From Cyathus striatus (taxonomy: Eukaryota; Basidiomycota; Agaricomycetes; Agaricales; Nidulariaceae): a DNA stretch of 64,000 nt. The position numbers and the translations under genes were made by a program. Shown piece by piece: positions 20,906-63,439 of this stretch. Positions within the stretch are counted from its first letter, which is position 1. Every line of letters starts with the position of its first letter. The stretch lies in assembly GCA_025738555.1 (NCBI GenBank), contig JAOVFP010000024.1, positions 372,001-436,000 of the forward strand, in the 5' to 3' direction. The notes under the pieces are model-generated. The model had not been told where the DNA came from and made no database searches. It saw only the letters and a program-made list of their open reading frames with translations.

Positions 20906-23900
20906 TTATACATTAGGACAATCCGGATTTTCCCGATGAAATTTATTTAAAAGACTTTTTGATCCGGTTAATGATGTAATCGGTTCCCATGTACAATGAT
21001 CATAAGAATAGCCTTTCCATTTAATTTTATAAAGAACCTTCTTCCGATTTATTTTCCAAGCAAGTATTGCTTCTACTTCGTATTGTTCCTGATCGTCTAT
21101 CACAATAGCAGGTGGAGGTTTTGGTTTCTGTTGTGATTTGTATTGTGCAGGAATGTGTTTCGTAAGTAGTTGTGTGTTATACACAGGGTGTTTTCGGTTC
21201 CAGGTTTTCGGTAATTGAATTTCGTATGAGGCTAGTCCTACTTTCTTTATTACCTTAAAGGGTCCGTATCGTTTATCATCTAATTTGGCAACCGGTCTGT
21301 TGGATTTAATATTAATCCCTTCTACGTAAACTAGATCTCCAGGTTTATATTCGGGCGATTCTTTTCTATTTCTATCATATCCTCGTTTCATTGCTTCGTT
21401 GGATAATGTAAGTGCCGCCTTAGCGTTTTCCCTAGCTTTGGTGATTGTAGAAATAAATTCATCTACTCCGATAGTTCGTGATGTTCCGTTTGGTCTAATT
21501 CCTCCATAGGGATGATGTCCATACATTAAATAGAAAGGGGTATATCCTGTTGCTCTATGTACCGTGTCGTTATAATTAAATTCAGTGACTGCTATTCTAT
21601 CTGCCCAATCATCTTGGTCGTAGTTTACGTAAATCCTAAGATATTGTTCTATTTCCTGGTTTACTCTTTCTACTTGTCCATTAGTTTGAGGTCGGTATGC
21701 AGTAGATAAATTCATTTTTACGCCTAGTCGTTTTGTAAATTATTTAGTGAAATGAGATGCAAATTGCGATCCTCTATCACTTATAACACGTTGTGGCATT
21801 CCGAAGTTTTTAAATACTTTTTCTAAATATAATTCTGCTACTCCGGGACTATCGATTTCTTTATTACATGGAATAAAGGCTGCCATTTTCGTGAATCGAT
21901 CAACAACTACCATTAAGAAATCGAATCCTTGGGAATACGGAAGTGGTCCTATAAAGTCGATGGATATAGTATGCCAAGGTCCTTCTGGAATACTATTAGG
22001 ATTTAATAGTCCTATTGGTTTCGATCTATGTATGTTTGTCCTTTGACATGCCTCGCATCCAGAAACATATTTCTTTATATCTGCCATTAATCTAGGCCAC
22101 CAGTAATCTCTCGTAATTAATTCCATTGTTTTATATTCACCATGATGTCCAGATATAGCAGAGTTGTGACATAGTTTAATTATACGTTCTCTGAGTTTTG
22201 CATTTTTAGGAATATAGATTCGATTTTTCCATGTAATTATACCTTCGGATGATTCTTTCCAATCTTTCGTTTTAAGGTTAAGCATTTTAATAACTTCCTT
22301 ATCTCGATTCTTTCTGGATTTTCGAACTTGTTCCATGATATCTTCATCTTCACCATGAACTTCATATGTTTGTCTGAAGTGTTCTGGTTTAAGAAGTATA
22401 ATATTTTCATTATCATGTTCGCCTTGTTCATGTCCAGCTCTTCGTGATAAAAGATCTGCCTTTGTCATTTGACTCCCTGGTTTGTGATGTAACGTGTAAT
22501 GGAATTCTGATAATTCTGTATGCCATCTAGCTTGTCGTCGATTTAACTTTTGAGGTTTTTTGAAATATTGGAGATTTTTGTGATCCGTCCAAATCTCGAA
22601 TATCTGTTTGGCTCCCAAAAGGTACTGTCTCCACGTGTCTAACGCTCTCATTATTGCAAGCATTTCTTTATCGTAGATTTTGTAATTTCGTTCAGTTGGA
22701 CTTAAAGCGTGTGATAAAAAGGCAATTGGTCTCCATTTTCCATCAACTTGTTCCTGGGATAGAATGGCTCCATTTGCGAAGTCTGAGGAATCTGCTTCTA
22801 TACGATATTTTCCATTATCATTCGGCATTGCTAAAATGGGTACCGATATAATTTGATCTTTTAGTTTGGAAAATGCTAAAGCTTGATTTAATTCCCATTT
22901 CCATTCGTTCTTTCCAGTTAATTCATGAAGTGGTTTCGCTATTTTTGCGAATCCTTGAATGAATCTTCTGTAGAAATTAATGAATCCTAGAAATTGTTGA
23001 AGTTCACGTTTATTATTGGGTACTGGCCAATCGACTACTGCTTTTACTTTCTCAGAATCCATTCTTACAGAATTCTTTGAAATAATAAGTCCTAAATATT
23101 CGACTTCAGCTTTTTCGAAGAAACACTTTTCCGGTTTAAGATAAAGTTCATGTTGTTCTAGTTTCCTAAGAACTCTCTTAACCATCTTTCGGTGTTCTTC
23201 TAATGTTTCCGTGAATATCAAAATATCATCCATATAAACGATTACTGTTCCTTTGTTAATTTCTGTCCTAAAGATATCGTTCATCATAGTTTGAAAAGTT
23301 GCTGGAGAATTTGTAAGTCCAAAGAACATGACTAATGGTTCGAATAATCCTTGATTGGTTCTAAATGCAGCATACTGTTCGTCTCCTTCTTTAATTTGAA
23401 CATTATTGTATCCCCATCTGATATCTAACTTGGTAAAATATCGTGCCTTTTTCAATTTATCTACTAATTCTTGAATCAACGGTAAAGGATATCTATTTTT
23501 AACCGTTAATTCATTTAATTTTCGATAATCTTGAATCGGTCTTAAAGATCCATCTTTCTTTTTGATGAAAAAGAATGGTGATGCCCAAGGTGATTTCGAA
23601 GGTCTAATACGTCCTGAATTTAAGTTTTCATCAAGGAATTCATCTAACTGTTTTTGTTCATCTAAACTTAATGGATAGATTTTGCAATCAAATGATGTAG
23701 CTCCCGGGAGTAATTCGATTGCATGATCCCATGGTCTTCGAGGAGGAAGTTTATCAAATGATTCCTTTGCGAATACCCTTTCAAACTCATGATAATACAT
23801 TGGAATAGTTTCTTTCCAATGTTTCTTTGGTTTCTGCTGATTTTGTGCTTCAGCAATTTTCAAAGCCGTAGTTTGAAATGCTCTTAGTTCGATTTGTTCA

Positions 23901-24766
23901 AATATATTGACCGCTATGATATGATCGTCTGATTCAAGATTTATTTGTTCATCTAAATCAGATTCTTCTTCCTCGGGGTTCATCGTATTTATTAATGGAG
24001 TACATTCTATTGGACATCGTGTGAATTTAATTGTTCCTTCATTCCAGTTTATTTCTGGATTGTGAGTTCGGAGCCAATCATGTCCAATAAACATAGATGC
24101 TTTTCCTAGATTGATAACAGCTAATTGTAATATTTCTACATGCCTTCCATGTCGTACTCTTAGTTCCACATAGTCAGTAATAGATCCATCACTATTGAGA
24201 GTTCCATCTGCGTTGTAAACCGGAGAAGGTCGTGGATATTTCTTTGTTGTGAGTTGATGTTCCTCTACAAATTTCCGATTAATACAAGTTCCAGTACTTC
24301 CGCTATTGAGTAATGCTTTTAACCCATATGTTCGTTGAGTATCCAAAGTAGTGACTATTAAATCAAGATCCATTTGATTTCCGTTTGTTCCTCGGATAAA
24401 TCTTTTGGGTCTTTTTAATTCTTCTAACACAAGAATTATATCTTGATCTGAAAGATCGTTTAATTCTGTGATTGTTTTCTGAATTACTTCAGGTCTTCGT
24501 TTAGGGTGTGTCCAAATACTCAATGTGGCTAAAGCAAGTTCCGATGTTTGGTCTTTTAATCTCCGTGCGACCCAATACACGTTTCCAGGTTTTACTTCCT
24601 GATTAGGGAAGGCGCGTTTAGTTCTTTCTTTTTGTAACGATACATATTTCGATTCCAGATCTATCATAGGTACAGTTACATTAGAAGGTACATAAAATGA
24701 GGCCGGCGAGTTTGCGCTCACTGCTGGCCTTGGGGAAAACCCAATTGAGCAATGAGTAGAGCACAT
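20906..24766 (-). pseudogene. A1 pol: protease-RT-RNase H-integrase-chromodomain, one stop
   Basis: This polyprotein copies the element RNA and integrates the DNA. In order it has an aspartic protease (LLNSGSTGT; the usual catalytic Asp is Asn, codon 24305-24307), reverse transcriptase ([11 protein letters not shown] at about 23240), RNase H (IEADSSDFANGA) and integrase. Integrase has the HHCC zinc domain (HHGEYKTMELI, then CEACQ), DFIGPL, SDRGSQF and, after the break, QTNGQVERVNQEIEQYL. It ends in a chromodomain (VEAILAWKINRKKVLYKIKW, then GYSYDHCTWEPITSL), which places it among the chromoviruses. A single in-frame TAA at 21740-21742 separates SHFTK from FTKRLGVK. The pol frame lies in -1 relation to gag and overlaps its end. 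Apart from the stop and the Asn, the frame is intact. Confidence 0.93.
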
Positions 24767-25126
24767 TGCTCTTCCGATAATTTAGTTACATCCGGTGTCA
24801 TTTAAGATTAAGATAATCTAAGGTGCTAACAGGAATCGACTTTGTTCGTGTTACAACACCTGAGTGTCAGGAAATATTTAGCAAGGATATTCTTGGAAAT
24901 TTAATAGGTGATCTTGTACAGCAAAAGCTGTATGAATTGTATGAAACTTGGTATGAAGGATAATGTACAGCAAAGGCTGTATATAATGTCAAGTATAATG
25001 AAAGGGGTATAGTACACACTATAGACTTAATGCTATATTTGATGTGTATATTGTTTAGATCAATGCTTAACTTGCTTAGGACTGGACCTATGACTGAAGT
25101 ATGCAATGATAAACTGTTCTCTGCCT

Positions 25127-25250
25127 CTAATACTGATACTGTTACTGTTACTTTGACTGTTACTTTGACTGTGACTGTGACTGTGACTGCTTCGGTTTCT
25201 GTTTCTGTTACTGTTACTGTTACTGACTGTACTGGCTGTGCTGATAAAAC
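25127..25250. repeat. CTGTTA/CTGTGA microsatellite in D1
   Basis: Imperfect 6-base units ACTGTT and ACTGTG repeat for about 120 bases. The equivalent place in copy D3 (about 56780-56890) has a shorter, rearranged version. A short open frame across it encodes only TVTVTVS-like repeats and is not a gene. Confidence 0.8.
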
Positions 25251-25629
25251 TGTACTAATAACTAATGACTAATGACAAATGGGTGAGACTACTGGGGGGG
25301 GTGGGTAGCTATCTATCTACTGCCAAACTGCCCTCCTTATATACCTTTTCCCAACCTGCTTAGTAATCCAATTCCCACTCTACCATCCTACATTGTTCTC
25401 CAAAACAAGTAATGTGCAAGTGTAGATTTTAGATCTGAGGCTGTACAGGACAATGGTATTTGAGGGTTAGTCAGCAGAGAACAATAGCTTATGTTAGCAC
25501 AATGTGTAATGAATTACATTGTTCTAAATAAAGAGCTACATTGTTCTGGGCAAGAACAATAGGAGTCCATTTATATAACAATGGAGTAGAGAACAATAGA
25601 TACCTATCTGCCATTGTGTAAACAATGGC

Positions 25630-25890
25630 AGTGAAAACAATGGAGTCATATATAAATAGTTTCACATTGTCTTTGGACAATGGGTAAAGAGTACAATGTA
25701 GTTCATTTATTATGAACAATAGGATTGAAAACAATGGAGTTGTATATAAATAGTTTTCTCATTGTCTTCAAAAATAGGTGAATAGTACAATGCAGTTCAT
25801 TTATTATGAACAATAGGATTGAAAACAATGGAGTTGTATATAAATAGTCTCTCATTGTCTTTATACAATGGATGAATAACACAATGAAAG
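25630..25890. repeat. Three 94-bp tandem units, each with a TATA box (D1)
   Basis: The word TATATAAATAG recurs at 25649, 25743 and 25837, exactly 94 bases apart. Each copy is surrounded by GAAAACAATGGAGT upstream and a CATTGTCTT word downstream. The same three-unit array is present in copy D3 at about 57607, 57701 and 57795. It resembles a triplicated core promoter. Confidence 0.8.
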
Positions 25891-27327
25891 AGTGTCATAT
25901 TATCCTTTGTTAGTGCATTGTTTGTGCAAGTGATTAATTATTGATATGTGTATGATGTTTAATGGTGATTTAGGGTTATTTGTTCATGTAAGGTATTGGT
26001 TTGTTCATGTATAGTATTGGGTATATTTGATTAGTAGTGTATTGTATCATGTGATGGTGTGAAGTATTCAGTCATGTGACATTACTGTGCAATTTCTTTA
26101 ATTGTGGTATACAGTGCATTTGCATGCATTATATATAATCAAAAATCATGCCTGACACCGGTAATTCTACTATTCCACTAGTGGAAGCTACGGGTATAGA
26201 ATTGTCCATATTTACATTACGTTGTACATAAGGTTCGCGTGGTTTCTTTGGGCATGTGTTGGACATATGTCCTTTCTCTTTACAATAGAAACAACGACCT
26301 TCTTTCTTTAGTTGGTCGAGATCCATACGATTTCCACCTTGTGATACCGTGAGGTTAGAGTGATCGGGTGTCCTTTGTTGCGTGTTCAGTGTCTGTTGGG
26401 TTCCTGGATTTGTGTTATTTTGGGGACGTCCAGAATTCTGGTTTTGGTTCTGTGGTCGTCCAAGATTTTGCTGAGTTCGTCCAAAATTAGCCTCTCTTCG
26501 GTTCCTTTCGTATTCCGCGGCTTTATCAACCCAATCGATAAGTTTGTCGGTGACCTTAAGTCCTCCGACTTCCATGAGTCTTGGGGCTAGAAGAGGGTGC
26601 ATGCCGCGTCGATATTTGTCTACAAGAGCCGTGTTATCAAATCCCATAAGGTTCATCCATTGCATAAAGTCGATAGTATAATCTTCAACTGGTCGGTTAC
26701 CCTGTACGACTTTGTTGATTTGTTCGATTGCGTTATTCTGAGTTTCTGTAGAGATAAAGAAAAACTGAAGTCTTTCAATGAATGTGTTCCAATCAGCAAA
26801 TGGGCAACCTGTTTTGAATGCATCATGGACGATGGCTGGGGATGTGTTGGTTGCCGGGATGTTGACTTTCTGTGTGTCCTGAAGAGTGGGTTCTTGTCCG
26901 TTATGTAATAGTTTCCATTGTGCTCGTTCTTCATTGAATAAAATTAGATCTCCTAAAAACGTGTCTGCCCATCGTTGGGCTTGGTTGTCCTTTCCTTTTT
27001 TCACTTTTGGTAAAGCGATCGTGATTTTCTTCCAGTCGTTCGTAATATTCTTTTCCTGGAAGTACAGCATCATACGTCTAATCCAATTATTAACCGTATG
27101 GGGATCTCCTTCATAATCTTCTGGAATTTCAACCTTTTCCTTTGGTCGATCTTCCTTGATTCCATCTCTGATTTCTTTAATGACCCCTTGAGTCATTGCA
27201 GAAACGCTTTCTGTGACTAACTGCTTGTTGGCAGGAGTCATGTTGGTCCATCTAGTTACTATTTCGTCTTTCATAAAAACCATTACTATGGCTGTAATGA
27301 AGCCGAGAATAATTTCTCCTGAGATCA

Positions 27328-27762
27328 TTATAGGTCGATGTCGGAGTCAGGGTATGTCGGTGTAGGAAGTTCTCTACCGTCGTTGTCAACGGTGTTAAGA
27401 AGGGTTTCGTATCCTAATGGAGAATAGAAGTCTCTTTCGAAAGGGGAAATGTATCGAGTAGGAGTACTAAATCTAAGTATGTCGTCGTGTCCAGGTTTGG
27501 TGATAATAGTAAGGATTCGGGGAATAGGCGGTGTGGGAAGATGAGGTGGTGGAATATAGTTGGGGATTTGGTGAAGGGATAGGTATGTGTTGGGATCAAA
27601 ATCCGAGTCGTCGGAGTCCACCGACACGGCTCTCGGAGTTTGAGGACGGGAATAGGGTGTTGGACGAGATCGAGGGTTATAGATGGGTACGGAAGAAGAG
27701 GGGATGTGATAGGAGCGAGAACGGAGGGATCGAAGGGTTTGAGAGCGAGTAATTGGTGCCAC
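27328..27762 (-). CDS. A1 ORF1, small basic protein upstream of gag
   Basis: The 144-residue ORF is the first long frame of the element RNA. It starts MAPITRSQTLRSLRSRSYHI, rich in Arg and Ser, and continues with many Pro and Tyr residues and an acidic end (TPTYPDSDIDL). No known domain was recognised. Its stop overlaps the gag ATG (TAATG), so gag translation may depend on termination and reinitiation after ORF1. A decayed version is present at the same place in A2 (about 39620-40030), so it belongs to the family. It could be a matrix-like N-terminal part of Gag. Confidence 0.7.
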   Translation of the reverse strand: MAPITRSQTLRSLRSRSYHIPSSSVPIYNPRSRPTPYSRPQTPRAVSVDSDDSDFDPNTYLSLHQIPNYIPPPHLPTPPIPRILTIITKPGHDDILRFSTPTRYISPFERDFYSPLGYETLLNTVDNDGRELPTPTYPDSDIDL

Positions 27763-28113
27763 CGTGATAGATCGAGTAACAGAAGCTCTTGAGGATGCTC
27801 AGAAACTAGTGAGACGTCCTAAGTTTCACGCACACTTTCTTGCAGATAGAACCAGCTGGGGCAACATGTGGTAGCCTCCCCAGTCACTGGCGCTGTGCCA
27901 AACTTAAGGCAGAGGGCCTTAGATGATCGGTAATTCGGACAGTGTCGGGCTCAACGTTACACCAGTCCTCTCGTACTTCCAAGTACAACGATCAAGTCTA
28001 TCAAATGGAGTGTACGTCTGGTCCAAAGGATCCAAGACGGGGAACGAGATATAGAAAGAAGTTTTGCCGGGGTTCGGCGAGAGAAGGGAAGTTCGGGGTC
28101 GAGGAATGAGGAG
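27763..28113 (-). promoter_or_regulatory. A1 structured 5' leader
   Basis: The stretch between primer site and ORF1 contains hairpin arms CTGGGG/CCCCAG (27856-27861 and 27878-27883). It also has a GTACTTGGAAGTAC palindrome fused to AGTACGAGAGGAC (minus strand, 27965-27977), which equals the core of the sarcin-ricin loop of large rRNA. The leader is recognisable in A2 (about 40080-40380) despite heavy CpG loss. It may serve packaging or translation; this is inferred. Confidence 0.5.
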
Positions 28114-28124
28114 ATTCTTGTGCT
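28114..28124 (-). promoter_or_regulatory. A1 self-primer binding site
   Basis: Two bases inside the 5' LTR, the element strand reads AGCACAAGAAT. This is the exact reverse complement of ATTCTTGTGCT within the same LTR (28219-28229, element strand), which starts 33 bases after the TATA box. No tRNA-type TGG primer site is present. This matches the self-priming arrangement known from Tf1 of fission yeast. Confidence 0.75.
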
Positions 28125-28126
28125 TT

Positions 28127-28499
28127 TGTTAGCGACAGACGAGCAAAATACTCGAAGCCGAACTTAAACACTCGAATATGAAAGAGAAGTGAGTCTTATT
28201 GCTAATCTGGAATAAACTAGCACAAGAATAACGAACTACTGACTAGAAAGACTGTATTTATAGAAAAGAACCATGAAGTAATTGCATGTACATTAACCTA
28301 CACTACAACGCATGTTACTGTGCTTCTACATTAAGAACTCATGTAATACGTATGGCCGAACTGTGCAACTGTGCCCACAGTTATGATGAGTAACATATGT
28401 TGATACGCATGGTGTCCGCATTGTAGGTCATGTGACTATCACATGACATAGATAAGATATGATTAGATAAAAGATTAGATAAATGACGAAATCCTAACA
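28127..28499 (-). repeat. 5' LTR of A1
   Basis: This 373-bp LTR drives the element towards lower coordinates. The TATA box TATAAATA lies at 28262-28255 on the minus strand. The predicted RNA start is about 28229, giving an R-U5 leader of about 103 bases. TGTTAG...CTAACA ends are intact, and GCCCT follows at 28500-28504. Confidence 0.93.
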
Positions 28500-43191: not shown

Positions 43192-43962
43192 TGTTACGTA
43201 CTGATTCCCTTCCTACTGGGAAACAAATGCAAAGACGCCCAGAAGGCATGGGAGAACTATAACGGAAACCCGAAGTGAGTACGGGTATGGGAACGGGAGC
43301 AGGAGTGCAGAAGTGAGTACGGGTATGGGAACGGGAGCAGGAGTGCAGAAGTGAACCATGGCTTCAGCATATGTGCTGCGCCGCCTGGATATCCCCAGGG
43401 AATGGTTCATATTTCATGACAGACGATATCCAATGTAAGGAAATGTTCCAGAGTATGTGAGGGGCTTCACCACTACACTAGGCAGTGGGAGAGAGACCCA
43501 AAGGAGAACCCGGAGTGGGTTTTGGAACTTAGAGTAGGAAGAAAGTGTACAGAGTTGATATGAATACTGAAGACTACCTAGTACATTTGGAAGACTATTT
43601 ATATGTACTAGTAAGATGTAGATATGAATCCGGAGACAGAATACTAAGTGTAAGTAAACAAAATAAAGACTGGGCAAAGAGGAGTAGTGGTGCAAATGAC
43701 GCGCTCAGAATGAAGAATAAGAAACTAAACTACATTGACCATAATGAAACATACAAGTGAGAATGGAAGAGAGGAGTAATGGTATAATGACATGGTGAGG
43801 CCGTCATAAGAGAAACTATGTATCTGAAGTATCCAATAGAAAACCTGACAGGTTCCGGGTATGTTCCCAGGTGGAAACATTGGGAAGTGTAAACCTATAG
43901 TGGGTACATTCCTGGAATGGACTGGGTATGTTGGAAGGTCATGTGGGAACCTTCGGTAACGT

Positions 43963-45349
43963 TGTCATGGGTGAAAGTTGATTTCACATAATGACATGAA
44001 TACAGCTAAATCACTCAAAGATAGAAAAGCAAACACTTAGAAAACTTAATAATACCTTAACAAACAACACTTAATATGCACTTCTATTTCACTATTAATC
44101 AGGAAAACCATACACAAGTAACTAATCAATACACTAACAAATAAAGCTACGTAAACACTAATAGTCCATCACCAATCAGAACAATTATACACAAACAAGT
44201 AACTACAATACCAGTTCATTATTAATCAAGATAAACATGCACAAATAATTAGTCATACTACTGGACCAGCACTAATCAGAATAAACATCATCATACAAAC
44301 AATTATACCCTGTACAAAATAAGAAGGCCTTCAGGTACAAACAAAAGAGCACCATTGTTCTCAAGAGCTATTAATAGCACAACCATTGTGCTAAATATAC
44401 CCATTGTTCTTTCAAGTACTATTAATAGCATTTCTATTGTGCTAAATATACCCATTGTCTAAGATGCTGACTCATGCATCCTAAATTGGAGAACAATGGA
44501 GAAAAGGATGACTCATACTTTCTCCAGTTGGAGAACAATGGGAAAGTAGGTGTGGGATATGATTAGTCAGCAGGAGGGTAAAAGGCATATAAGGAAGAGG
44601 AATTGGCCTGTAGAATTAACAACTTATACCTAGTTTACATTTGTTTGTATCCCTTTGCAGTTGTAGCACACAACCCTTACCTACTAAATATAACCTATAT
44701 ACTTCCCCTCTACCCAGTACACATATTGTCAGAGTCACATATAAAGCGTCAATAGTAAAGTGTGAAACTAATTTGTATTATTTGTGTCTACTCAGATAGT
44801 AAGGCACTGTATCTTCGTAAAGTAACAGCAGCAGCAGCATCATATTTGTGTCCACTCAGATAGTGAGGCACCATATCTTTGTAAAAGTAACAGCAGCAGC
44901 AGCATCATATTTGTGTCCACTCAGATAGTGAGGCACTGTATCTTCATAAAGTAACAGCAGCAGCAGCAGCATCATATTTGTGTCCACTCAGATAGTGAGA
45001 CACCATAACCTTGTAAATTATATATATGCACCCCAGTTGTGAAGTAAGAAGCAGAAACTGTCAGGGACCTCAGCTCCACTTCAACCTTCAACATAATAGT
45101 GACCTATATCTTCAGCCTACCCTTCACCTGCAAGCCCTTGCCACAATCCTAGTTGTTGCACTTGCTATTCACCTACTCTTCTAAACTTATCTACCCACCT
45201 CTACACTTAAATGTACACCTGTGTTCATCATCAAACCTCTTGAGTTAAGGAGAATATCTACAAATAATATCCCCCAACACTCAGGTGCAAAGCATGAATA
45301 AAGTCACTTCCTGCTGACCACCTTAGATATTTATTATCTTAAACTGACA
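43963..45349. mobile_element. Family D element, copy D2, reverse orientation
   Basis: The 1387-bp insert starts TGTCATGGG and ends AAACTGACA, with ACGT duplicated (43959-43962 and 45350-45353). The paralogous LTRs give the empty site and confirm the borders. Reversed, its end aligns with the start of D1 (TTTAAGAT...ATCTAAGGTG, then CACCTGAGTGT). It carries CATTGTTCT words and a 65-bp tandem repeat. Non-coding. Confidence 0.87.
44780..45005. repeat. About 65-bp tandem repeat with CAG runs in D2
   Basis: ATTTGTGTCYACTCAGATAG recurs at 44780, 44844, 44909 and 44976. Each unit includes AGGCAC..TATCTT and ends in a CAGCAGCAG run of variable length. This array is not present in D1 or D3. Confidence 0.85.
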
Positions 45350-45774
45350 ACGTCAGCATGATATAGCTGGGCATGGATATAACAGTATCCCCTTTTTGGG
45401 CTGAGCCCACGAGGTCATACTGTGTGCGAGAAAATATAACTAAAAATAATATGAGAAATCCTATTGGTCAGTGAATGTTCAAATAAGAGAACATATGCAC
45501 ATCTGATTCCTTTCTAACCCTCATCATAGATAAGAGTGGCACTTCAGTGAATATGTCTTCAGAGGAATTTGCTGCCTTCCTAGCCTTTCAAGCGGCTAAC
45601 CAGCAGGCAGAAACTTCGACTCCGGCCTCCTGGAGTAGTTCTGGCAAACCTAGACCAAAGCCAAGGCCTATAAATCCAGCTCCAAGATGAGAGAACACTG
45701 TGTACATCAATGTTTTTCTGGCACCGATTCCATCTGTTCGTTCCGGTAAGGTGGCAGACATGGTTGTACCGCAG

Positions 45775-46438
45775 TGTCATATCCCGTATTGCCTACCTCC
45801 GGACCCCTATGCTCTTACTCCGCCTTTCCCTTTGTTTACTCTGGACTTTGATTATGCTCTTAATATTACTTATTGATTACTGTACATAGATTACTCTCAT
45901 TTCCTTTCTTCTGTTCTACTGAGCTATCCCCTCAGTAATGTAGTATACATTTCGTAGTGAGTCACTTATCATTCTTAAGTGTGCCACTATCAGTTTTACT
46001 TTACACCGCCTTACGTGCTCACTTCTCCGACGTGTTTTATTATGTTTAATTAGTTATAGTCTTCATTCTACGTACACCTACCCTGACCGTACTTCTCCAC
46101 TGGCCTTGGCCAGCAGCCTTTACTTACTCTGAGTCTCTAGTATTTAAGTAGTACTTGATTTGTACTTAGACTTTAGTTTCGTATTGAACTATGTCCTCAC
46201 CCTTCAGTCTGACTTGAGTTACATCTCTTGTCTCCTCATCTCGCGTCTTCTCCGAAGGGCTTGCCCTTACTCCGAAATCCAGGACCAGGAATCCCAGGGG
46301 TGCAGCACATAAGCTGAAGCTGAAGTCCTACCCCCTGAGTTATCATTCTCTGCTTTCGTCTTACACTCACCCCTTGCTTCTCCACAGTCACTCTCTCGTA
46401 CTCCGCCGCCAAGTCAGGCTAGGGGCACGGTCGTGACA
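45775..46438 (+). repeat. 5' LTR of E
   Basis: 664 bp, TGTCATATCCCG...GTGACA. TATTTAAG at 46141 is followed 33 bases later by TAGTTTCGTAT (46174-46184), the presumed start of the RNA. Confidence 0.93.
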
Positions 46439-46440
46439 GT

Positions 46441-46451
46441 ATACGAAACTA
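46441..46451 (+). promoter_or_regulatory. E self-primer binding site
   Basis: Two bases after the LTR, ATACGAAACTA is the exact reverse complement of TAGTTTCGTAT at 46174-46184. Spacer and length equal those of A1, although the sequences are unrelated. Confidence 0.75.
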
Positions 46452-46489
46452 CCACCTTGGATTCCTCACATAACACTTTTCTTTCTCTC

Positions 46490-48283
46490 ATGGCTACCCG
46501 CACGCAGACTCAGACTGCACATGCTAGGAGCCATGAACAATAGCAAAACAATATGCGCCATAGCAATCATCTAGTTGCTCAGCAAGCCTGTGAACATAAC
46601 ACAGCTAACACGCCTCGTCGTGTTGACTCTGCTCCACCTCTCTCTCGGCGGAACGCCCCACCCTCAGCTAGTGCTCTCGTCTCTGGAGGAATTACCTCCA
46701 CTCATCGTGCAGCTCGTGAACTTCAGCCGGTTCACAGCAATCAATTGCACGCTCCACGCCCAATTCCATTGAGTGTTCCTTATGACCCCACCCTTACCCC
46801 CACTGCGTCCATAGAACCAGTGGATACTCAACTACCTCTGGAAGGTGTAGCTGCACGCCAGCAGCAAACACCCACAGCCCATTCACCACCCGCCCAACAG
46901 CCTGTAGCTTCAGGCAGTGGAGGACTTCCTCCACTACCACCTTCCTCTGCTGGCAATTCTGCTGGAGTTGGAAATGGCGCACCTCCAGACGATGCTGGAG
47001 ATGATGATGATGACTCCGGAGATGATGGTAACGGTTCCGGAGATGATGATCAAGGAGATGACGATCAAGGGGACAATGATGAGCAGGCAGGTGCCAGTGG
47101 CAATGGTCCTGGCAGACCAAATGGCCCCAGAGGTCCTCCCTCTAATCCTCCCTCCAATTCTCCCTCGGAACCTCCTTCAAGGCCTCCCTCCAGGGATGCC
47201 TACCGCGACCCTCGTCGCCCAACTGCAAGACCCCACTACAATTTCACCCGGGATGAAATCCTGGAAATGGTGGCCTCTGTGGCGGGTTATTTTGCCCCGC
47301 CATCACCACCTCCACCACCTCCTCCTCCCGTTCGGGAGAAGAAGGTTAACCAGCCGGACAACTTCGACAGCTCCAACACACTTAAGCTGGAGCCCTTCAT
47401 TACGCAAGTCCGCTTGGTGTTCCGGAACAACCCCCAGTTGTACCCGGACAACGCATCTAAAGTCAACTACGCATTGACTTTCCTCCGTGGCTCAGCAAGC
47501 AATCTGTTTGCCACTCATCTCGATGATGATGCATACGAGCCATGGATGGATTCATGGGGCTACTTCATTCAGCTACTCCATACTCATTTCGGCCATACCA
47601 ACCCTGTTGGTGAGGCTGAAATCCGCATATTCTCCCTCCACATGGAGGATAACCAGCATCTCACTACATACGAGATCAAGTTTAATGAGTATGCAGCCCT
47701 CTTGCCTTGGGACGATGCTGCCCTCAACTCGGCATACTACCGTGGCCTTTGTCCTCGTCTGAAGGACACTCTCTCTCATCGAGAGCAAGGCTGGCCTATG
47801 ACCCTTGCCGGGACAAAGAAGGTAGCCCAGGGCTATGATCAGAGGCATTGGGAGCGCAACACCGAGCACAACATTGAGGAGAAGCACAGCAAGTCTGCTG
47901 CCAAGTCTTCGGAGAAGCCTAAGGGCAATCAGAATTCGAAGTCAACTTCGAATTCTTCCTCCTCCTCCAAGACTCCATCCTCCTCTACCTCCTCCTCCGC
48001 CTCTTCTACCTCCGCTTCGTCCTCGGGGAAACCCAAGAACAAGCAAAAGCAGAACCAGTCCAAGGCGCCAGACTTGACTGGGAAGCTTGGTTCTGACGGG
48101 AAGCTCACCCCGGAAGAACGTAAACGTCGCCTAGACCAGAAGCTTTGCCTATTCTGTGGCAACGCCGGTCATCAGGCCAAGGACTGTCGCAAGGCAGCCT
48201 CTGCCGCCAAAGCCCATGTGGCCACTGCCACCTCTACCAAGGCAACTCCCTCGGCAAACTCGGCTGAGAGTTCAAAAAAATAG
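46490..48283 (+). pseudogene. E gag, early stop
   Basis: The likely start is 46490 (MATRTQTQTAHARSHEQ), followed by a TAG at codon 18 (46541-46543, probably CAG to TAG). The frame is then open for 576 residues from the next ATG at 46553. A Pro-rich N-terminus and an Asp/Gly-rich stretch lead to a retrotransposon capsid region (KLEPFITQVRLVFRNNPQLY, about residues 280-420). A Ser-rich linker and one CCHC knuckle (CLFCGNAGHQAKDC, about 48150) follow. It ends SKK-TAG after a run of seven A. Except for the one stop, it is intact. Confidence 0.9.
48274..48280 (+). promoter_or_regulatory. Candidate -1 frameshift slippery site A AAA AAA
   Basis: Gag ends TCA AAA AAA TAG. The heptamer A AAA AAA in the gag frame fits the X XXY YYZ rule and lies directly before the stop. 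The -1 frame is open from here into the protease. A downstream pseudoknot was not worked out. Confidence 0.6.
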
Positions 48284-51200
48284 AGAGCGGCCCCAGTGAC
48301 TCCACACAGGCTGAGGGCTGCGTTAATCTCTCCTGTGCACCTAAGGAGATAAGACTAAATGCATCTGCTCTTTATGATCCCCAAGCTGTAAATATTCCTT
48401 TGACTTCATTTTCTCCAGCTGCGCCGGATATGCCCCTATCTTTTCTCTCGCTCATCGATTCTGGTTCAACCCATTGTTTTGCTGACTCGTCGTTTGTGAG
48501 GGAGCACAACCTTCCCACAACTCCGGTCCCTCCCATTGCACTGAAACTTTTTGACGGTACCTCTAACTCCATACTTACAGAGAGTATTTTATTATCTGTA
48601 ATGTTTCCTACTGGTGAATGCATGGATATTTCATTCTATGTAACTCCGCTTGATTCTTCCTGTTCCGTGGTATTAGGATTTAACTGGCTCTCCCAACACA
48701 ATCTGTTGATTGACTAGACTGAGAGACGTATACTTGGCTTCCAAACCCTGGTCCTAGGAGAATCTTCTCCATCTTTGTTGACACCTGCACTGAAGGCATC
48801 TGCCTCCTTGCAAACCCCTCCATCACCAGCTTTGTCTTCTGTTCCTCCGTCGGACAATAGTCCACCCAGTATCTCGCTCATTAACGCTGCAGCTTTTCTC
48901 CGGGCTAGTAAGCTTGCAGGCTCGCAGATGTTTAGGATACAAGTTGGTGCTGTAGTTTCAGCTTCTGCCGCTGCCATGGCTGCAGAAGCCGTGGACCTTT
49001 CTAGTATTCCTCCAGAATACCACGAGTTCGCTGATGTCTTCAGCAAAACACGAGCAGACACTCTTGCTCCACATCACCCCTACAATCTCCAGATCAACTT
49101 GGAGGAAGGTACGTCTCCTCCAGTCAGTACTGTATATTCACTCTTGCAGTCCGAGTTGGCCTCTCTACAAGAGTTCATCGACAAACATCTCTGGATTGGC
49201 TTCATCCGTCCGTCTCGTTCTCCACACGGAGCACCAGTGCTCTTTGTCTGGAAGAAAGATGGATCCCTTTGACTCTGTGTCGATTTCCGTGGGCTTAATG
49301 CAATCTCCAAAAAGGATTGATATCCCCTTCCCCTTATTTCCGACCTCCTTGACTCTCCTCGCAAGGCTAGAATCTACACCAAGATCGATCTCCGCCACGC
49401 TTACCACTTAGTCCACATCGCTGATGGAGATGAATGGAAGACCGCTTTTCACACTCGCTATGGCTCGTTTGAATGGCTAGTAATGCCGTTTGGACTCACC
49501 AATGCACCTGCAGCTTTCCAACATTTCATGAACGACATCTTCAAGGACATGCTCAATGTGTGCGTTACAGTCTACCTCGACGATATACTAATCTACTCTG
49601 ATAGTCTCGAGGAGCACAAACGGCACATTAAAGAAGTTCTAAAGCGTTTACGCCAACATGGGCTCTATGCCCAGGCGGACAAGTGTGAATTCCACACTGA
49701 ATCTGTTGAGTACTTAGGTTATGTCCTTTCTCCGGGCAGCCTCACTATGTCCCAGGATAAAGTCCAAACCATTAGGGATTGGCCCGAGCCTAAGAAGGTT
49801 AAAGACGTTCAGTCTTTCCTTGGGTTCACCAACTTCTATAGGTGCTTTATCCAGTACTACTCCGACATTGTAGTGCCACTCACTCGTCTTACCTGCAAGG
49901 GTTTGAAGTGGGACTTTTCTCCGGCTTGCCATTCGGCATTTGAGAAACTTAAGGACGCCTTCACTACAGCCCCTGTACTCACTCATTGGGTCCCTGATGC
50001 CCAGATCATTGTAGAGACTGATGCCTCTGACTATGCCCTCAGAGCAATCCTCTCTATTGTCGCTGACGATGGCGATATTCACCCCATTGCGTTCCATTCC
50101 CATACTTTCACCACTCCTGAACTGAATTACGACACCCACGACAAGGAACTCCTGGCCATTTTTGAAGCTTTTCGTGTCTGGTGACACTACTTGGAAGGTT
50201 CTGGTACTCTGGTTGATGTGGTTACTGACCATAAAAACTTAGAGTATTTCTCCACCACCAAGATTCTCACTCGCCGTCAGGCTCGTTGGTCAGAGTACCT
50301 GTCTCAGTTCAATCTGGTTATTCGTTTCCGCCCAGGGAAACTTGGTGTGAAACCTGACGCTTTAACTAGACGATGGGACGTCTACCCTAAAGGGGGGAAT
50401 AACGACTATGCCAAAGTCAATCTGCACAATTTTCGCCCTGTTTTTACCCAAGAACAGCTCATTGCCTCTATCTGTGCCACCACACTCCTTCATCCTGTTC
50501 TCCATGCCAGCATCATTATGGATGTTGAGCAACTCCACCGCGACATCCTCACTGCCCAACCCCTAGACACTGTCGCATCTATCCACCTTCGCAATCCCAC
50601 TAATCGTTGGTCTGTTGGTTCAGATGGCTTACTCCGCCTCGACAACCAGATTTATGTTCCAGATGACGATTCTCTCCGCCTTCGCATTGTCCAGTACAAA
50701 CATGATCATTTACTCACCGGACATCCTGGTCAAAACAAGACCTTGGATAATATTCGACAGGAATATACTTGGCCTGGACTCTGTACTTATGTCAAGGACT
50801 ATTGTAAGTCTTGCACCATCTGCTTATGGTCTAAACCACAGTGTCACCGTCCCTATGGTACCTTGAAGCAACTCCCTATTCCGGAGCGCCCATGGAACTC
50901 TATATCTATGGACTTCATTGAAACACTTCCCATTTCTGGATTTGATAAGTACAATTCAATCCTAGTTATTGTTGACCACCTTAGCAAGCAAGCTATCTTC
51001 ATCCCTTGTCATAACACCATTACCTCCGCCCAGCTCGCTAAGCTCTTTGTCATGCATGTATTCTCTAAGCATGGTGTTCCCAGCCACATTACCTCCGATC
51101 ATGGTTCAGAGTTCGTCTCCCACTTCTTCCGGTCTCTTGGTAAGGTTCTCGACATTAACCTACACTTTACCTCCGGATACCATCCAGAAGGCGATGGACA

Positions 51201-51999
51201 AACTGAATGCATTAACCAAGTCTTAGAACAGTACCTCCGCATTTACTGCAATTACCAGCAGGACAACTGGGCTGATCTCCTTCCCATCACTGAGTTCGCG
51301 TATAACAATACACCGAGCTTGACCACTAATATGACTCCTTTCTTTGCCAATAAGGGTTATCATCCACAGATTACAGTTTATCCCGAATGTGACGTTACCT
51401 CCGTTCATGCTAGGGACTACGCCATGGACCTCCAGGAACTTCATGAAAACCTCAAGGCCGAAATAGCACTTGCTCAGAAGTGCTATCAGGTCAGAGCAGA
51501 CAACTGTCGTTTGCCTGCCCCAGAGTTCAAAGTTGGAACCAAAGCCTTCGTCCATGCTAAGTTCTTTAACACCACTCACCCTTCCAAGAAATTGGCTGAA
51601 AAGTATTACGGTCCCTTCGAGATCATTGCTGAAACTGGTACCCACTCCTGCACCCTTAGACTCCCTTCCAATTTCCGAGCTGTACACCCTGTATTCCATG
51701 TCTCTATGCTCGAGCCTGCAGTTGAAAACACTATCCCTGGTTGAGAGATACCTCCACCTCCCCCTGTGGAAATCGACGGAGATATCGAGTTCAAGATCAG
51801 TGAGATCTGCAACTCCAAGCTAGATCGCCGGTTCAAGAAATGTCCTCTTCGTTACTTAGTCTGATGGACTGGTTATGAAGGAACCGACGAAGAACTCACT
51901 TGGTTGGCTGCCACAGAAGTAGAACATGCTACAGAGCTCATAGAGGAATTTCACACTCGTTATCCCAATAAGCCTAATCCTTCTACTCCTGTTACATAG
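48284..51999 (+). pseudogene. E pol: protease-RT-RNase H-integrase-chromodomain, six stops
   Basis: In the -1 frame after gag come protease (SLIDSGSTHCFADSSF, catalytic Asp kept), RT (VTVYLDDILIYSDSL, about 49570), RNase H (IVETDASDYALRAIL), an integrase zinc domain ending CKSCTICLW, the core (SMDFIETLPIS, TSDHGSEFVS, GDGQTECINQVLEQYL) and a GPFEII-type end. A chromodomain (IEFKISEICNSKLDRRFKKC, then W.GYEGTDEELTWLAA) follows to the TAG at 51997. Stops lie at 48715 (TAG for Trp), 49270, 49318, 50182, 51742 and 51862 (all TGA; Arg is expected at most). The TGA stops fit CGA to TGA decay. Confidence 0.92.
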
Positions 52000-52323
52000 A
52001 TTTTCTCTGCTTACATCTCTGTTTCTCCGCTATAGTTTCTTGTATATCCGTATCCGTCTTCTTGACCAAAGGTTGAAGATTGACACTTCTCCAGACACCG
52101 CTTGCATGATGACCACTATGTTTAATAAGCATAGCTGATTCATCACTTTGCATACTTAACGAGGTGGGCTGAGAGTGGAAGTACGGAGTTGTATTGGTTT
52201 TCTCCTAAGGTGTTTCTCTTTACTCCGTCTTATCGTTTACTCTTACTTTTCATTCTCCTCACGTCAAAAAATCATTAAAGTCCACACAAAACAAGTATTT
52301 ACATTTTTTCCACCTACTGTACA

Positions 52324-53963
52324 CTACTCTTCGTCTTCGTCTTCTTCCTCTTCATTACTCCCGGACTCATTAGTCTCCGCTGGAGTACCCTCCTCTGCCG
52401 CCTGCGTGGTTGTCATCAACCTATTCAACGTTCCCATCAACTCCATATGCATGTTGACATTTCTCCCCAAGGCCTCCATCAGCAAGTCCGATAAGGGACT
52501 CCCGGAGTTGAGCTGCATTGCCAGCTTGTCACGCTCATTCTCCGCTTGGTACAGCTGGTCCCTCAGGATCTTACACTCAGCGTCAAACATCTTCCCCTTG
52601 GCCCACAATTCATCCACCTGTTTCTCCACGACCTCTAACTTCAACCTTGCCACTGCCAGTTGCATCTGCAACTCCTCCACTAGCTTCTCCTGCCCCACAC
52701 CACCAGTCTGCATCTTCTCCAGACCTCTTCTCCGCTCCTCTGCGTTCCCCGGGACTACAGTCCCCCACATTATTCCCTCATTTTCACATCTCCCCTTCTT
52801 CGTCCGACATGCCTCGCATGCCTTGTGGTTCATCTTCTTTCCCCTAGGAGCAAGTCAGAACAACTCCGAAAAGAGAAATGGACAACTTACTCGAGATCCA
52901 ATAGGCACTCCCTGTTTAACTTACTGCATACATTGCAAGGGGCCTTGGGCAAGACATACGCCTCTTTCTCCTTTTTCTCCGCAGCTGTCTTGGCTTTCTC
53001 CACACCCTTACCCTTCTTCTCTGCCGATGCCCTCACTTCTCCCATCTCGACGTCGGACTTGTCCCCAGCCTGGCTCTCTGTGCCGGTACGACTCTTGCTC
53101 CCAGACTGGCTAGCCTTGCTGCTAGCATTGTCTTCCACCGCCTCGTCGTCGATCAGAGTCTTGCTCTTCATTCCCTTGCGTTGGGAAGTCCGGGTCATAG
53201 TCTTCTTTTTAGGCAGTTTTGGCATCGCCTCTGTCGTGTCCTCCGGATTTGTGTTGGTGTGCCTTCTCTTGGAGCCACCCTCGTTCTCCATCCGCTGGAC
53301 ATTCTTCCCCACCTCTTCCTCCAGAGTTATGGTGTGGCCTTCAGCCTCCAGCTGCTGAACAGTGTGTTCATGGTCAGCAATCTGCTCTGCACTCATGTAA
53401 GTACCTACCTGTGGGTTGGTTGTTACCTCTGGCTCTACCACAGTAGTTGGAACTCCTACATTCATAGGCCCTACCTCTGCCAATGCTTCCTCTACCACTT
53501 TTTCCACCAGAGTCGACTCGTCCACTGGCATCACCAAACTATTGGCATTCCTATGGGTTCGTAAGGACATCTCCACCAATTCTCGACTAAACGAGATTAC
53601 TCCCAACCTTGCAACTGTTGTCTCGTACTCTGCGTGTATTGGCGGAGTAGTGCCTTGTGCTGTCGATTCCTCCGCTGGGCGACCAGTTAGTCGTGCCATC
53701 GTTTGAGCAACCCTCGCTTTTGTCTCTTCCTGCTTACGTTTCTTTTCTCGTACCGCCTCCAGTTGTCAATCTCCCTCATCCACTTCCATTGCATCTTCCT
53801 TCTCCGCCTCACCCTCTGTCCCATCCTTCTCGGCTCCCTTTTTCTCCACCTTCTCACCCCTCAGCTCCTTTTCGAGGGCTTCTACCTCCACTCATCTGTG
53901 AAGGAGTAATCTAAGTTTCTCCTCATGCATTGGGTCTTCAATCGAAGGAACAGAGGCAGACAT
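52324..53963 (-). pseudogene. E antisense zinc-cluster gene with intron, two stops
   Basis: This spliced gene runs against gag-pol between the chromodomain and the 3' LTR. The ATG is at 53963 (MSASVPSIEDPMHEEKLRLL). The exon is Glu/Lys-rich, then acidic with basic clusters (RKGMKSKT), and ends with CNVCSKLNREC (52937-52905). A 47-base intron (52890-52844) has a perfect GTAAGT donor, a CTGAC branch-like site and a TAG acceptor. Exon 2 has CEACRTKKGRC (52818-52786), giving CX2CX6C-13-CX2CX6C. A long coiled coil (EKLVEELQMQLAVARLKLEV, then KILRDQLYQAENERDKLAMQ) and an acidic tail (NEEEEDEDEE) finish at 52324. Zinc cluster, coiled coil and acidic end recall Gal4-type factors, but the cluster is internal. 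Two TGA stops upstream of codon MARLTG are consistent with CGA decay. Confidence 0.78.
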
Positions 53964-54037
53964 TTTTAAGCGGTCACGTGTAAATGAGTTGGTGTAGCGG
54001 GGTAAAAATGATTTTGATTTTTCCTCCACAGCTGACC

Positions 54038-54045
54038 TTTATATA
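54038..54045 (-). promoter_or_regulatory. TATA box of the E antisense gene
   Basis: On the minus strand TATATAAA lies 82 bases before the antisense start codon, within the element and outside the LTR. It suggests the antisense gene has its own promoter. Confidence 0.5.
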
Positions 54046-54127
54046 TCTGGACCTGATGTCAAAACGCCGATCAAATTTTCAAAAGCCTATTGTTTGATCA
54101 CATGCTCAGGCCTCGAGGCTCGGCCTT

Positions 54128-54138
54128 AAGGGGGGAAT
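54128..54138 (+). promoter_or_regulatory. E polypurine tract
   Basis: AAGGGGGGAAT directly precedes the last two bases before the 3' LTR. It would prime plus-strand DNA synthesis. Confidence 0.8.
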
Positions 54139-54140
54139 AC

Positions 54141-54804
54141 TGTCATATCCCGTATTGCCTACCTCCGGACCCCTATGCTCTTACTCCGCCTTTCCCTTTG
54201 TTTACTCCAGACTTTGATTACGCTCTTAATATTACTTATTGATTACTGTACATAGATTACTCTCGTTTCCTTTCTTCCGTTCTACTGAGCTATCCCCTCA
54301 GTAATGTAGTATACATTTCATAGTGAGTCACTTATCATTCTTAAGTGCGCCACTATCAGTTTTACTTTACACCGCCTTATGCGCTCACTTCTCCGATGTG
54401 TTTTATTATGTTTAATTAGTTATAGTCTTCATTCTACGTACACCTACCCTGACCGTACTTCTCCACTGGCCTTGGCCAGCAGCCTTTACTTACTCTGAGT
54501 CTCTAGTATTTAAGTAGTACTTGATTTGTACTTAGACTTTAGTTTCGTATTGAACTACATCCTCACCCTTCAGTCTGACTTGAGTTACATCTCTCATCTC
54601 CTCGTCTCGCATCTTCTCCGAAGGGCTTGCCCTTACTCCGAAATCCAGGACCAGGAATCCCAGGGGTGCAGCACATAAGCTGAAGCCGAAGTCCTACCCC
54701 CTGAGTTATCGTTCTCCGCTTTTATCTTACACTCACCCCTCGCTTCTCCGCAGTCACTCTCTCATACTCCGCTGCCAAGTCAGGCTAGGGGCATGGTTGT
54801 GACA
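54141..54804 (+). repeat. 3' LTR of E
   Basis: 664 bp. At many sites where this copy keeps CG the 5' copy has TG or CA, and the reverse, so both have decayed separately at CpG. Confidence 0.93.
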
Positions 54805-56486
54805 CGCAGGTCATAAATCTGATGGAGATGAGTGTCGGGAGTGGGTCAGGATCATTGGGAGAGGTGGCAGGATCTGGATATGAGGTGGAAAGTGGCAGAA
54901 ACATCGGCAAAGGCAAGGGCAAGGGTAAAGGTAACTCTGGGGAGCCAAAGGAATGACAATACCATCATACAGTGCCCTGCACAAACTGTCAGGATTGGGG
55001 AACTGATTGTTATTGGTTAAGGGAGTCCAACAGGTGAGTAAATCATGATTATCAGTCTGTATAGTTTATAGGAACTCCCTGTAGTGCTTGCATTGCTTGT
55101 GGAGTGATTAAGGGAAAATGTTCCCTTAGTACTCAAGGCTGGAACAAAGCCAGAACGAGTTCCGTCTCATCCATGCATTCGGAACACTCAGATACCCACA
55201 TGGGTCCCCCATCCATTGCACCATCTTGCCAGTCATCTTGTCAAAGCATGAAGCAGGCTCAGATCAATGATACAGATGATGAATTTATTTGTCCTTCATC
55301 CATGGTAGCGGGTCCATTGTTCTGATCCTCTAGTGCAAACGATTCTGCTAATCTGGTCTCCTTGTCCACATCCATGAATGTCGCAACATCCGTCCTAAGT
55401 GCTATGCAGTTGCAGAACGACACCATCATCTCTCAGCAGAGGGAGATGATTACTCAACTCAGAAACCTTGCAGATACCAATTGCCAAGTGGTAGGCGAAC
55501 TTGGTAAGCTAACCCGAGTCATTGCCAAAGTATCCGAGCATGTCATCCATGTTTCCAATATTGAAACCTTGCTCGTGGAATGCCTCTGGGAACCGGATGC
55601 ATACAAGGAAGATGTAATGGGTGCCGGAAACACTTCGGAAGGTGAGGTAGTTCCTCAGGTCGAATTGCAGACACAGAAAAAGTGATGAAAATGGTCGTAA
55701 CATGTTACCAAAGAATTATTGTACTTGTATCTCGCTTTTTTGCTTGTTATTCATTGTTTTTGGTTTTTGTATAAGGTGAAACTGCAAGCGGATAATAAGT
55801 AACGTGAAATTAAGAAATAGGAGTAGGGCTGGGCTTATCTGGATAGCAAGAGTGGAACTCTTTGATGATATCCATAGTGTGTTCCAGTTCTGTAGCCGGA
55901 AGCCATGAGAACTCTTCATCAGTCCCTTCATACCCTAGCCAGCATACGTAGTACCTCAGTTTGCAATGCAAACGACGATCCAGTTTAGAGTCCAAGATTT
56001 CTGAGACCTCGTATTCAATATCACCATCAACCTGGACAGGTGGTGGTGGAGGAATAATACGATCTGGAATAGTATTTTCAGTATTGGGTTCAAGCATGGA
56101 TACATGGAATACTGGGTGGACTGCATGAAATTGTTCTGGAAGGCGCAAGGTACGCGAATGTGATCCGGCAAGTGCGATGACTTCAAAAAGTCCTAGGAAC
56201 TTTTCTGCAAGTTTCCAGGATGGCCGGGTTGTCCGGAAGTACTCGGCTTTGACGTATACCTTTGTCCTGATGGGGAATGTGGGTGTGGGTTTGCGACACG
56301 CATTGGCGGGTGCTTGGTAACGTTTCTGTGCACTGAGTATTTCAGTTCGAAGCATCTCATGAAGTTCCTTGAGGTTTACTGCGAAGTGCTGGGCACAAGT
56401 GGAAGTGAGATCACGTTCCAGATGTATCGCAAGGTTTGGGTGATAACCCTTGTTTGCGTAGAACAGTGAAATTCCTGTGGTTGTGC

Positions 56487-62675: not shown

Positions 62676-63439
62676 TGTTACATACTGATTCCCTTCCTAC
62701 TGGGAAACAAATGCGAAGATGCCCAGAAGGCATGGGAAAACTATAATGGGAACCTGAAGTGAGTATGGGAATGGGAATGGGAGCGGGAGTGCAGAAGTGA
62801 ACCATGGCTTCAGCATATGTGCTGCACCACCTGGATATCCCCAGGGAATGGTTCATATTTCACGACAGATGATATCCAATGTGAGGAAACATTCCAGAGT
62901 ATGCGAGGGGCTTCACCACTACACTAGGCAGTGGGAGAGAGACCCAAAGGAGAACCTGGAGCAGGTTTTGGAACTTAGAGTAGGAAGAAAGTGTACAGAG
63001 TTGATACCAATACTGAAGACTACCTAGTACATTTGGAAGACTATTTATATGTACTAGTAAGATGTAGATATGAATCCAGAGACAGAATACTAAGTGTAAG
63101 TAAACAAAATAAAGACTGGGCAAAGAGGAGTAGTGGCACAAATGATGCGCTCAGAATGAAGAATAAGAAACTAAACTACATTGACCATAATGAAATGTAC
63201 AAGTGGGAATGGAAGAGAGGAGTAATGGTATAATGATGTGGTGAGGCTGTCATAAGAGAAACTACGTATCCGAAGTATCTGATAGAAAACCCGACAGGTT
63301 CCGGGTACATTCCTGGGTGGGAACATCGGGAAGTGTAAACCTGTAGCAGGTATGTTCCTGGAATGGACTGGGTATGTTGGAAGGTCATGTGGGAACCTTT
63401 GGTAATATCAGCACAATATAGCTGGGCATGGATATAACA
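62676..63439 (-). repeat. 5' LTR of F
   Basis: 764 bp, TGTTAC...GATATAACA on the plus strand. It is the intact partner of the split 3' LTR and the reference for solo LTRs C1 and C2. GAACA follows at 63440-63444. Confidence 0.93.

Follow-up and report, generated by a model that had tools for sequence, protein, structure and literature searches.

Antisense genes between pol and the 3′ long terminal repeat (LTR) have been reported in LTR retrotransposons of fungi and plants, and their function is given as still unknown in the available part of one account (PMC7264820). In Boty of Botrytis and Sclerotinia, the antisense gene brtn lies in this position (PMC7264820, PMC8365987), a CHROMO domain is reported for the gag-pol (PMC4227169), and the citing accounts, as far as they are accessible, credit the brtn of Boty-like chromoviruses to Zhao et al. 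2011 (PMC7264820, PMC8365987, PMC4227169). Among plant elements, the excerpts available describe an upstream promoter of its own and a nuclear protein for the Grande gene, and possible DNA binding for that of Retand (PMC7264820, PMC11963269). Here, we describe an antisense gene in chromovirus E, an LTR element within a 64,000-nt stretch of the Cyathus striatus genome (assembly GCA_025738555.1, contig JAOVFP010000024.1, positions 372,001 to 436,000 of the forward strand; the window). An earlier note on this DNA had known of no description of such a gene in fungal LTR elements, a view that the reports on brtn do not support. The copies of E and of a related element establish that a fungal chromovirus clade carries a constrained, spliced antisense protein gene, which joins two three-cysteine half-clusters and has a conserved TATA box.

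A spliced gene antisense to chromovirus E

E encodes a two-exon gene on the minus strand (53963–52324), between the integrase and the 3′ LTR (Table 1). This is the aORF-3R position, on the opposite strand from pol to the 3′ LTR, with the 3′ LTR within the window. The earlier note had announced a minus-strand frame of about 530 codons in this place, a 47-base intron with GTAAGT, CTGAC and TAG, a TATA box of its own, two CX2CX6C halves joined by splicing, a long coiled coil and an acidic tail. We recovered these features: the spliced frame of the window copy has 530 codons, the intron is at 52890–52844, the TATA box at 54045–54038 reads TATATAAAGG, one half-cluster lies on either side of the intron, a long helical stretch is predicted in exon 2 (AlphaFold helices at 48–112 and 116–150 of 172 residues), and the C-terminus is acidic. 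The layout of the frame therefore stood, but the note had not mentioned two in-frame TGA codons in exon 1 of the window copy (minus-strand first bases 53894 and 53768).

Searches with the exon-2 protein gave 103 matches in the host genome (107.45 Mb, 24 contigs), fragments counted, and 81 of these are near full length (at least 160 of 173 residues). A lack of related intact frames in other copies had been named as grounds for dropping the idea; 66 of the 81 are free of stops. The detailed set consisted of 34 copies, the window copy included (L009–L038, the best 30 by protein score, and L059–L062), which form the close groups A and B and a half-identical group C. Splice signals of the form GT[AG]AG[TA]...AG are present in all 34, with intron lengths of 46, 47 or 48 nt. 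Introns of group A read GTAAGT...CTGAC...CTAG, and those of groups B and C GTAAGA or GTGAGA...ACAG or TCAG. Their interiors are 91% identical within A and 94% within B/C, whereas A versus B/C reaches 52%, compared to 50% for shuffled letters; the spliced frame persists through this exchange of intron interiors. The six cysteines of the cluster are kept in 32, 32, 34, 34, 34 and 34 of the 34 copies, and 11 copies have both exons open behind a methionine close to the usual start. In the genomic RNA, the intron lies in reverse orientation and should thus survive reverse transcription, so that a retroelement can keep it. The E family shows how a spliced gene can be kept by such an element, and the intron would mark the antisense mRNA unambiguously.

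When copies were selected by their integrase DNA (the best 40 of 323 candidates, all 94–100% identical), all 40 had exon-2 sequence on the opposite strand (37 near full length, 3 in pieces), 555–1285 nt downstream of the integrase. The pairing by location used 46 of the 103 exon-2 match rows, those near integrase places. In copies selected by the antisense gene, exon 2 is opposite to the integrase in 20 of 20.

TATATAAAGG is conserved in 17 of 20 copies (window copy counted), the form TATAAAAGG occurs in two, and the region is missing in one. This conserved TATA box suggests that the antisense gene is transcribed from its own promoter. The TCCGGA next to it is exact in 14 of 19 copies; in the remaining five, including the window copy, the CpG is altered. 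CGG triplets are common targets of zinc cluster proteins and, with TCCGGA beside the antisense TATA box, it is a fair guess that the product may regulate its own promoter. Between this TATA box and the polypurine tract (window 54047–54130), there are also a GATCAAA/TTTGATC-like inverted repeat, a CACGTG-like box and a GGCCTCGAGG-GCTCGGCC stretch; these features are mostly common to the copies and are possible regulatory sites.

Purifying selection on the antisense frame

The ratio of nonsynonymous to synonymous divergence (dN/dS) was calculated by the Nei–Gojobori method. For exon 2, it is 0.16, 0.17 and 0.15 in A-A, B-B and A-B comparisons, and 0.31, 0.37 and 0.27 in A-C, B-C and C-C. Compared over one set of 20 distinct copies, exon 2 has a dN/dS of 0.16 versus 0.18 for the integrase (1.07 and 1.41 in shifted integrase frames). 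The exon-1 set consisted of 22 of the 34 copies (most of the excluded ones are rich in stops or have a disrupted exon 1) and gave 0.29 without and 0.30–0.33 with L013, whose start is frameshifted and which was dropped from the simulation, CpG and block sets; L059 and L062 were omitted from the exon-1 group means. Four of the five other frames of exon 2 give 1.04–2.23 (A-A and A-B), and the reverse frame, which shares third positions, gives 0.22–0.24 in exon 2 and 0.42 in exon 1, where the other control frames give 0.98–1.30. The controls are not perfectly clean, with 0.55–1.10 against the distant group C and 0.75–1.30 in shifted frames of small sets. To offset the selection of most copies by protein score, ten copies of low rank were added; their exon-2 dN/dS is 0.27 when they are compared with each other (0.75 and 1.00 in shifted frames) and 0.20 versus the others. 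In summary, the antisense protein gene is under purifying selection, about as strict as that on the integrase for exon 2. Like an aORF-3R, it is present in most copies, on the count of integrase-selected copies given above, and conserved like gag-pol. The copies, the splice sites, the dN/dS and the linkage to the integrase all support the element-encoded spliced gene proposed earlier.

Neutral simulations gave mean dN/dS values of 0.52–0.77, so the method itself accounts for part of the shortfall from 1. The exon-1 mean of 0.29 is nevertheless below all simulated pairs (minimum 0.39, three settings of 200), and for exon 2 the A-A mean of 0.16 is below the simulated minimum of 0.20; A-C values were left out of the simulations. 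After removal of CpG-type codons, dN/dS is 0.27–0.29 for exon 1, 0.15 for exon 2 and 0.38 for A-C. The filtering and the simulations rule out CpG decay as the cause of the low dN/dS.

A constraint of this kind might be imposed by an overlapping sense gene, or the open frame might be due to chance, and a 220-aa plus-strand open reading frame (52451–53113) does overlap in the window copy. However, the sense-strand frames contain on average 2.9–3.0 stops per copy in exon 2 and 5.6–8.6 in exon 1, and these stops, together with the frame controls, rule out this explanation, the probability of which is practically nil. The earlier note had made its case depend on selection beyond overlapping-gene constraint, and the exon-2 dN/dS of 0.15–0.17 opposite stop-ridden sense frames is of this kind. 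Alternatively, the locus could act only by an antisense RNA, double-stranded or noncoding, with an incidental frame. Such a transcript would overlap the genomic RNA, and antisense long noncoding RNAs derived from transposable elements are reported in a fungus in the accessible part of one paper (PMC10648671). It is, however, highly improbable as the sole function, which the codon-level constraint contradicts: selection at the protein level is near that of the integrase, the cysteines are conserved, and the frame is kept despite changes in intron sequence and length.

A split zinc-cluster-like domain in two chromovirus families

The predicted protein consists of a variable N-terminus, basic stretches, the cluster, a long helix and an acidic tail, in this order. 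In the AlphaFold model of exon 2, pLDDT is 84–97 over residues 51–110 and 70.9 overall. The Zn2Cys6 pattern is C-X2-C-X6-C-X5..12-C-X2-C-X6..8-C; the loop between the halves has 13 residues in E, and 9 in a second family (see below), which fits. Against Zn_clus (PF00172, cut-off 21 bits), E scores 20.4 bits as a 43-residue piece and 13.2 as the 442-residue protein. The second half of E matches profile positions 1–15 and the first half weakly matches the second half of LEU3, which departs from the canonical order with the basic half first. The best solved-structure hits for the halves, LAC9 (E-value 0.14) and LEU3 (E-value 1.5), are weak. Hence, the Gal4-type label given by the earlier note holds for the resemblance to the Zn_clus halves but not for their order, which is swapped, nor for the score, which is under the Pfam cut-off. 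The cluster of E appears to be Zn2Cys6-like without being a PF00172 member.

The host genome contains 19 Zn_clus matches over the cut-off, and none were obtained in 14 control genomes. The host matches would suit a transduced host gene carried as a passenger. This is very unlikely, since every integrase-selected copy has the gene and two diverged families keep it under selection, and the constraint already observed contradicts passenger status; moreover, a host progenitor did not stand out in the match lists, the entries of which were not inspected singly. An ancient capture of a host gene is possible.

The basic stretches and the long helix could also belong to an accessory of integration or nuclear import, a coiled-coil protein that would travel with the pre-integration complex and steer it to chromatin. 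The presence of exon 2 in every integrase-selected copy agrees with this, and nuclear or pre-integration roles are suggested for antisense genes in the part of the literature available (PMC7264820). On the other hand, the TATA box points to a separate antisense promoter, so that the protein would not be made with Gag-Pol, and E already has a chromodomain. We regard such an accessory role as rather unlikely.

E is inserted in an older minus-strand chromovirus (window 43192–63405) and interrupts the antisense zinc-cluster gene of that element (family 2). The outer element has LTR-like repeats (43192–43959 and 62676–63405, 88.7% identical) and gag-like, reverse transcriptase (RT), integrase and chromodomain regions. 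Next to E, the family-2 gene occupies the plus strand, opposite to the coding strand of the outer element, whose chromodomain and 3′ repeat flank it; exon 2 of the gene has 66 protein matches in the genome, fragments counted. The same 51-nt intron (GTGAGT...TGTAG) is present in 6 of 7 fetched relatives; the intron pattern did not match L076, and L078 loses the frame right before the intron. The dN/dS is 0.25 for exon 2 (8 copies, the window's included; shifted frames 0.77 and 1.30) and 0.29 for exon 1 (6 copies; shifted frames 1.14 and 0.96). The introns of both genes are in phase 2 and lie between the third and fourth cysteine, and the cluster regions of the two families align (hhalign E-value 5e-5 in one comparison, probability 67%). 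The Zn_clus scores of family 2, 10.3 and 17.8 bits, are also under the cut-off; its first half matches profile positions 17–34, and the PDB comparison gave only weak hits, a GATA-like one first. E and the outer element are 73% identical in RT (206 aa) and 70% in integrase (177 aa), compared to 47% and 40% between E and a third chromovirus of the window (20317–28425), in which the pol frame and the repeat are no more than about 290 nt apart. E and the outer element share the gene layout, and the simplest reading of these sequences is that the antisense gene was acquired once, before the two families diverged. Upstream of the family-2 gene, near the outer 3′ repeat, a 65-nt repeat occurs four times head-to-tail (window 44779–45039).

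The LTRs of E itself (45775–46438 and 54141–54804, 664 nt each) are 95.9% identical without gaps, and gag, RT, RNase H and integrase lie between them according to Pfam, as in a chromovirus. The chromodomain at the integrase C-terminus was identified in an open relative, L043 (PF00385 Chromo, 31.9 bits versus a cut-off of 25.1); the window copy gives a partial match under the cut-off.

Table 1. Features of chromovirus E and of the interrupted family-2 gene, in window coordinates.
Feature	Position	Strand	Remarks
Antisense gene, exon 1	52891..53963	-	variable N-terminus, basic stretches, first CX2CX6C; dN/dS 0.29-0.33
Antisense gene, intron	52844..52890	-	phase 2, 47 nt, splits zinc cluster; GTAAGT...CTGAC...TAG
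Antisense gene, exon 2	52324..52843	-	second CX2CX6C, long helix, acidic tail; dN/dS 0.15-0.17 in close groups
Antisense TATA box and abutting TCCGGA-like palindrome	54038..54051	-	TATA at 54045-54038
Chromovirus E, whole LTR element	45775..54804	+	LTRs, target-site duplication CGCAG
gag (Retrotrans_gag)	46553..48283	+	Pfam PF03732, E=5.9e-10; CCHC knuckle below cut-off
Integrase, SH3, chromodomain	50518..51996	+	Pfam; two stops break the frame in the window copy
Family-2 gene, first part, cut by E insertion	45526..45774	+	by comparison with L073-L075; start codon lost in the window copy
Family-2 gene, remaining exon 1	54810..55033	+	first CX2CX6C at 54978-55010
Family-2 gene, intron	55034..55084	+	51 nt, phase 2, splits cluster; shared with 6 of 7 relatives
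Family-2 gene, exon 2	55085..55685	+	second CX2CX6C, coiled-coil-like stretch; one in-frame stop

Variation along E is concentrated in exon 1. The mean pairwise divergence per 150-nt stretch (20 copies) is 10–31% in exon 1, compared to 3–6% in the integrase, about 7% in exon 2 and 4–7% inside the LTR. In group C elements, the integrase is 94% identical to that of E and the exon-2 protein only about 51%. In Mantel tests on 18 of the 20 copies (L042, with an internal deletion, and L047, with its 5′ end missing, were dropped), the integrase and LTR distance matrices agree (r 0.72), and exon-2 distances track both the integrase (r 0.59) and the LTR (r 0.56). The block with the first half-cluster follows neither the integrase (r 0.05, p 0.35) nor the N-terminal block (r 0.08, p 0.13). 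The N-terminal block has r -0.01 with the integrase and a weak correlation with the LTR (r 0.27, p 0.002), and the two middle blocks correlate weakly with the integrase (r 0.30 and 0.23). This indicates that shuffling is clear for the cluster half and the N-terminus, and partial elsewhere. Positive selection was not found in the 60-codon blocks of exon 1, where dN/dS is 0.15–0.43, and the variation looks old, constrained and reassorted. As to single copies, L059–L061 (C23, C13, C7), two of which are in the integrase-selected set, have an integrase about 94% identical to that of E but combine the approximately 51%-identical exon 2 with an intron and cluster half of B type, and so represent a cassette swap. 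L032 and L030 (C1:2122479, C8:2742653) look like mosaics within the antisense gene, as their N-terminal, middle and cluster blocks belong to different groups.

An island that varies while under constraint might be the outcome of an arms race. The product could be an anti-silencing factor, which would attach to the element and there remove or block the cytosine methylation or heterochromatin set by the host, with cassettes that vary as host silencing changes. The VANC proteins of plant VANDAL transposons are a precedent for anti-silencing. In favour of this, dN and dS (A-A) are both 25–41% lower without CpG-type codons, which suggests methylation of the E family by the host. However, no homology to known anti-silencing proteins was found in Pfam and protein searches, and the exon-1 blocks never exceed the upper value given above. 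An anti-silencing function is unlikely but credible.

A possible regulator and its relation to known systems

For the gene as a whole, we lean slightly towards a product that is a trans-acting nuclear regulator of the element; from the sequence, we infer a role as a regulator or host-factor mimic, as the earlier note had proposed. The product would form a nuclear coiled-coil dimer and bind DNA via its Zn2Cys6-like cluster. It would act in trans on the promoters of the element, namely the LTR and the antisense TATA box next to the conserved TCCGGA, and thereby tune transcription or copy number. Recombining N-terminal and cluster cassettes could make copies differ in partners or target specificities.

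Several observations weigh against a trans-acting regulator. Across the 18 copies, variation in the first half-cluster allele is correlated neither with the LTR (Mantel r 0.10, p 0.24) nor with the antisense promoter (r 0.14, p 0.13), which counts against a simple operator co-evolution. Given the sub-cut-off Zn_clus score, the swapped halves and the 13-residue loop, zinc and DNA binding are putative. The AlphaFold pTM is 0.32, and the 172 modelled residues do not span the whole cluster. Protein searches (E-value limits of 0.001, 0.1 and 0.1) gave no homologues outside the host's own genome, in a database perhaps poor in fungal proteins. Finally, the copies of the antisense gene were mostly picked by best match.

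A more specific possibility is that the antisense gene is a specificity locus, in which hypervariable DNA-binding alleles would decide which copies recognise and restrain or release each other, in a manner resembling immunity or incompatibility. Cassettes would be shuffled among elements with near-uniform integrases and LTRs, and, from their common ancestor on, two or more chromovirus families would have kept the locus. We consider this quite unlikely; if it were true that cassette variation is specificity, LTR elements would own something like a repressor-immunity locus. The E family makes the function of an antisense gene testable, as it offers codon-level evidence, a suggested DNA-binding domain and allele swaps between near-identical elements.

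Boty-like chromoviruses share with E, as far as the available accounts go, the fungal LTR element, the chromodomain and an extra antisense gene from pol to the 3′ LTR. By contrast, the citing accounts, by which the two are compared by description only, mention no zinc cluster, intron, selection test or allele shuffling for brtn. The plant aORF-3R genes (gene23 of maize Grande, rice RIRE2, TRP28 of Retand, PvRetro13) are likewise described as antisense between pol and the 3′ LTR, but in plant hosts and with other domains (TRP28, SMC) or none, and Retand is described as a non-chromovirus, unlike E. An intron, which the E gene has, is unmentioned for them in the accessible parts of PMC7264820 and PMC11963269. 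HTLV-1 HBZ and HTLV-2 APH-2, antisense nuclear regulators of a retro-element, are cited in one of these as an analogy (PMC11963269), with no homology claimed. Gal4-type Zn2Cys6 proteins (PF00172; LAC9, LEU3) have, like E, two three-cysteine half-clusters followed by a long helix; E differs from them in its swapped halves, its longer loop (that of family 2 being shorter), its sub-cut-off score and its location on a retroelement. HBZ, for its part, is a bZIP protein with its start in the 3′ LTR. No earlier zinc-cluster or spliced antisense gene of an LTR element was found among the matches listed for the literature searched, subscription papers being mostly out of reach. As far as that literature shows, the conserved intron, the split zinc-cluster-like domain, the codon-level selection tests, the occurrence in two families and the cassette shuffling are new.
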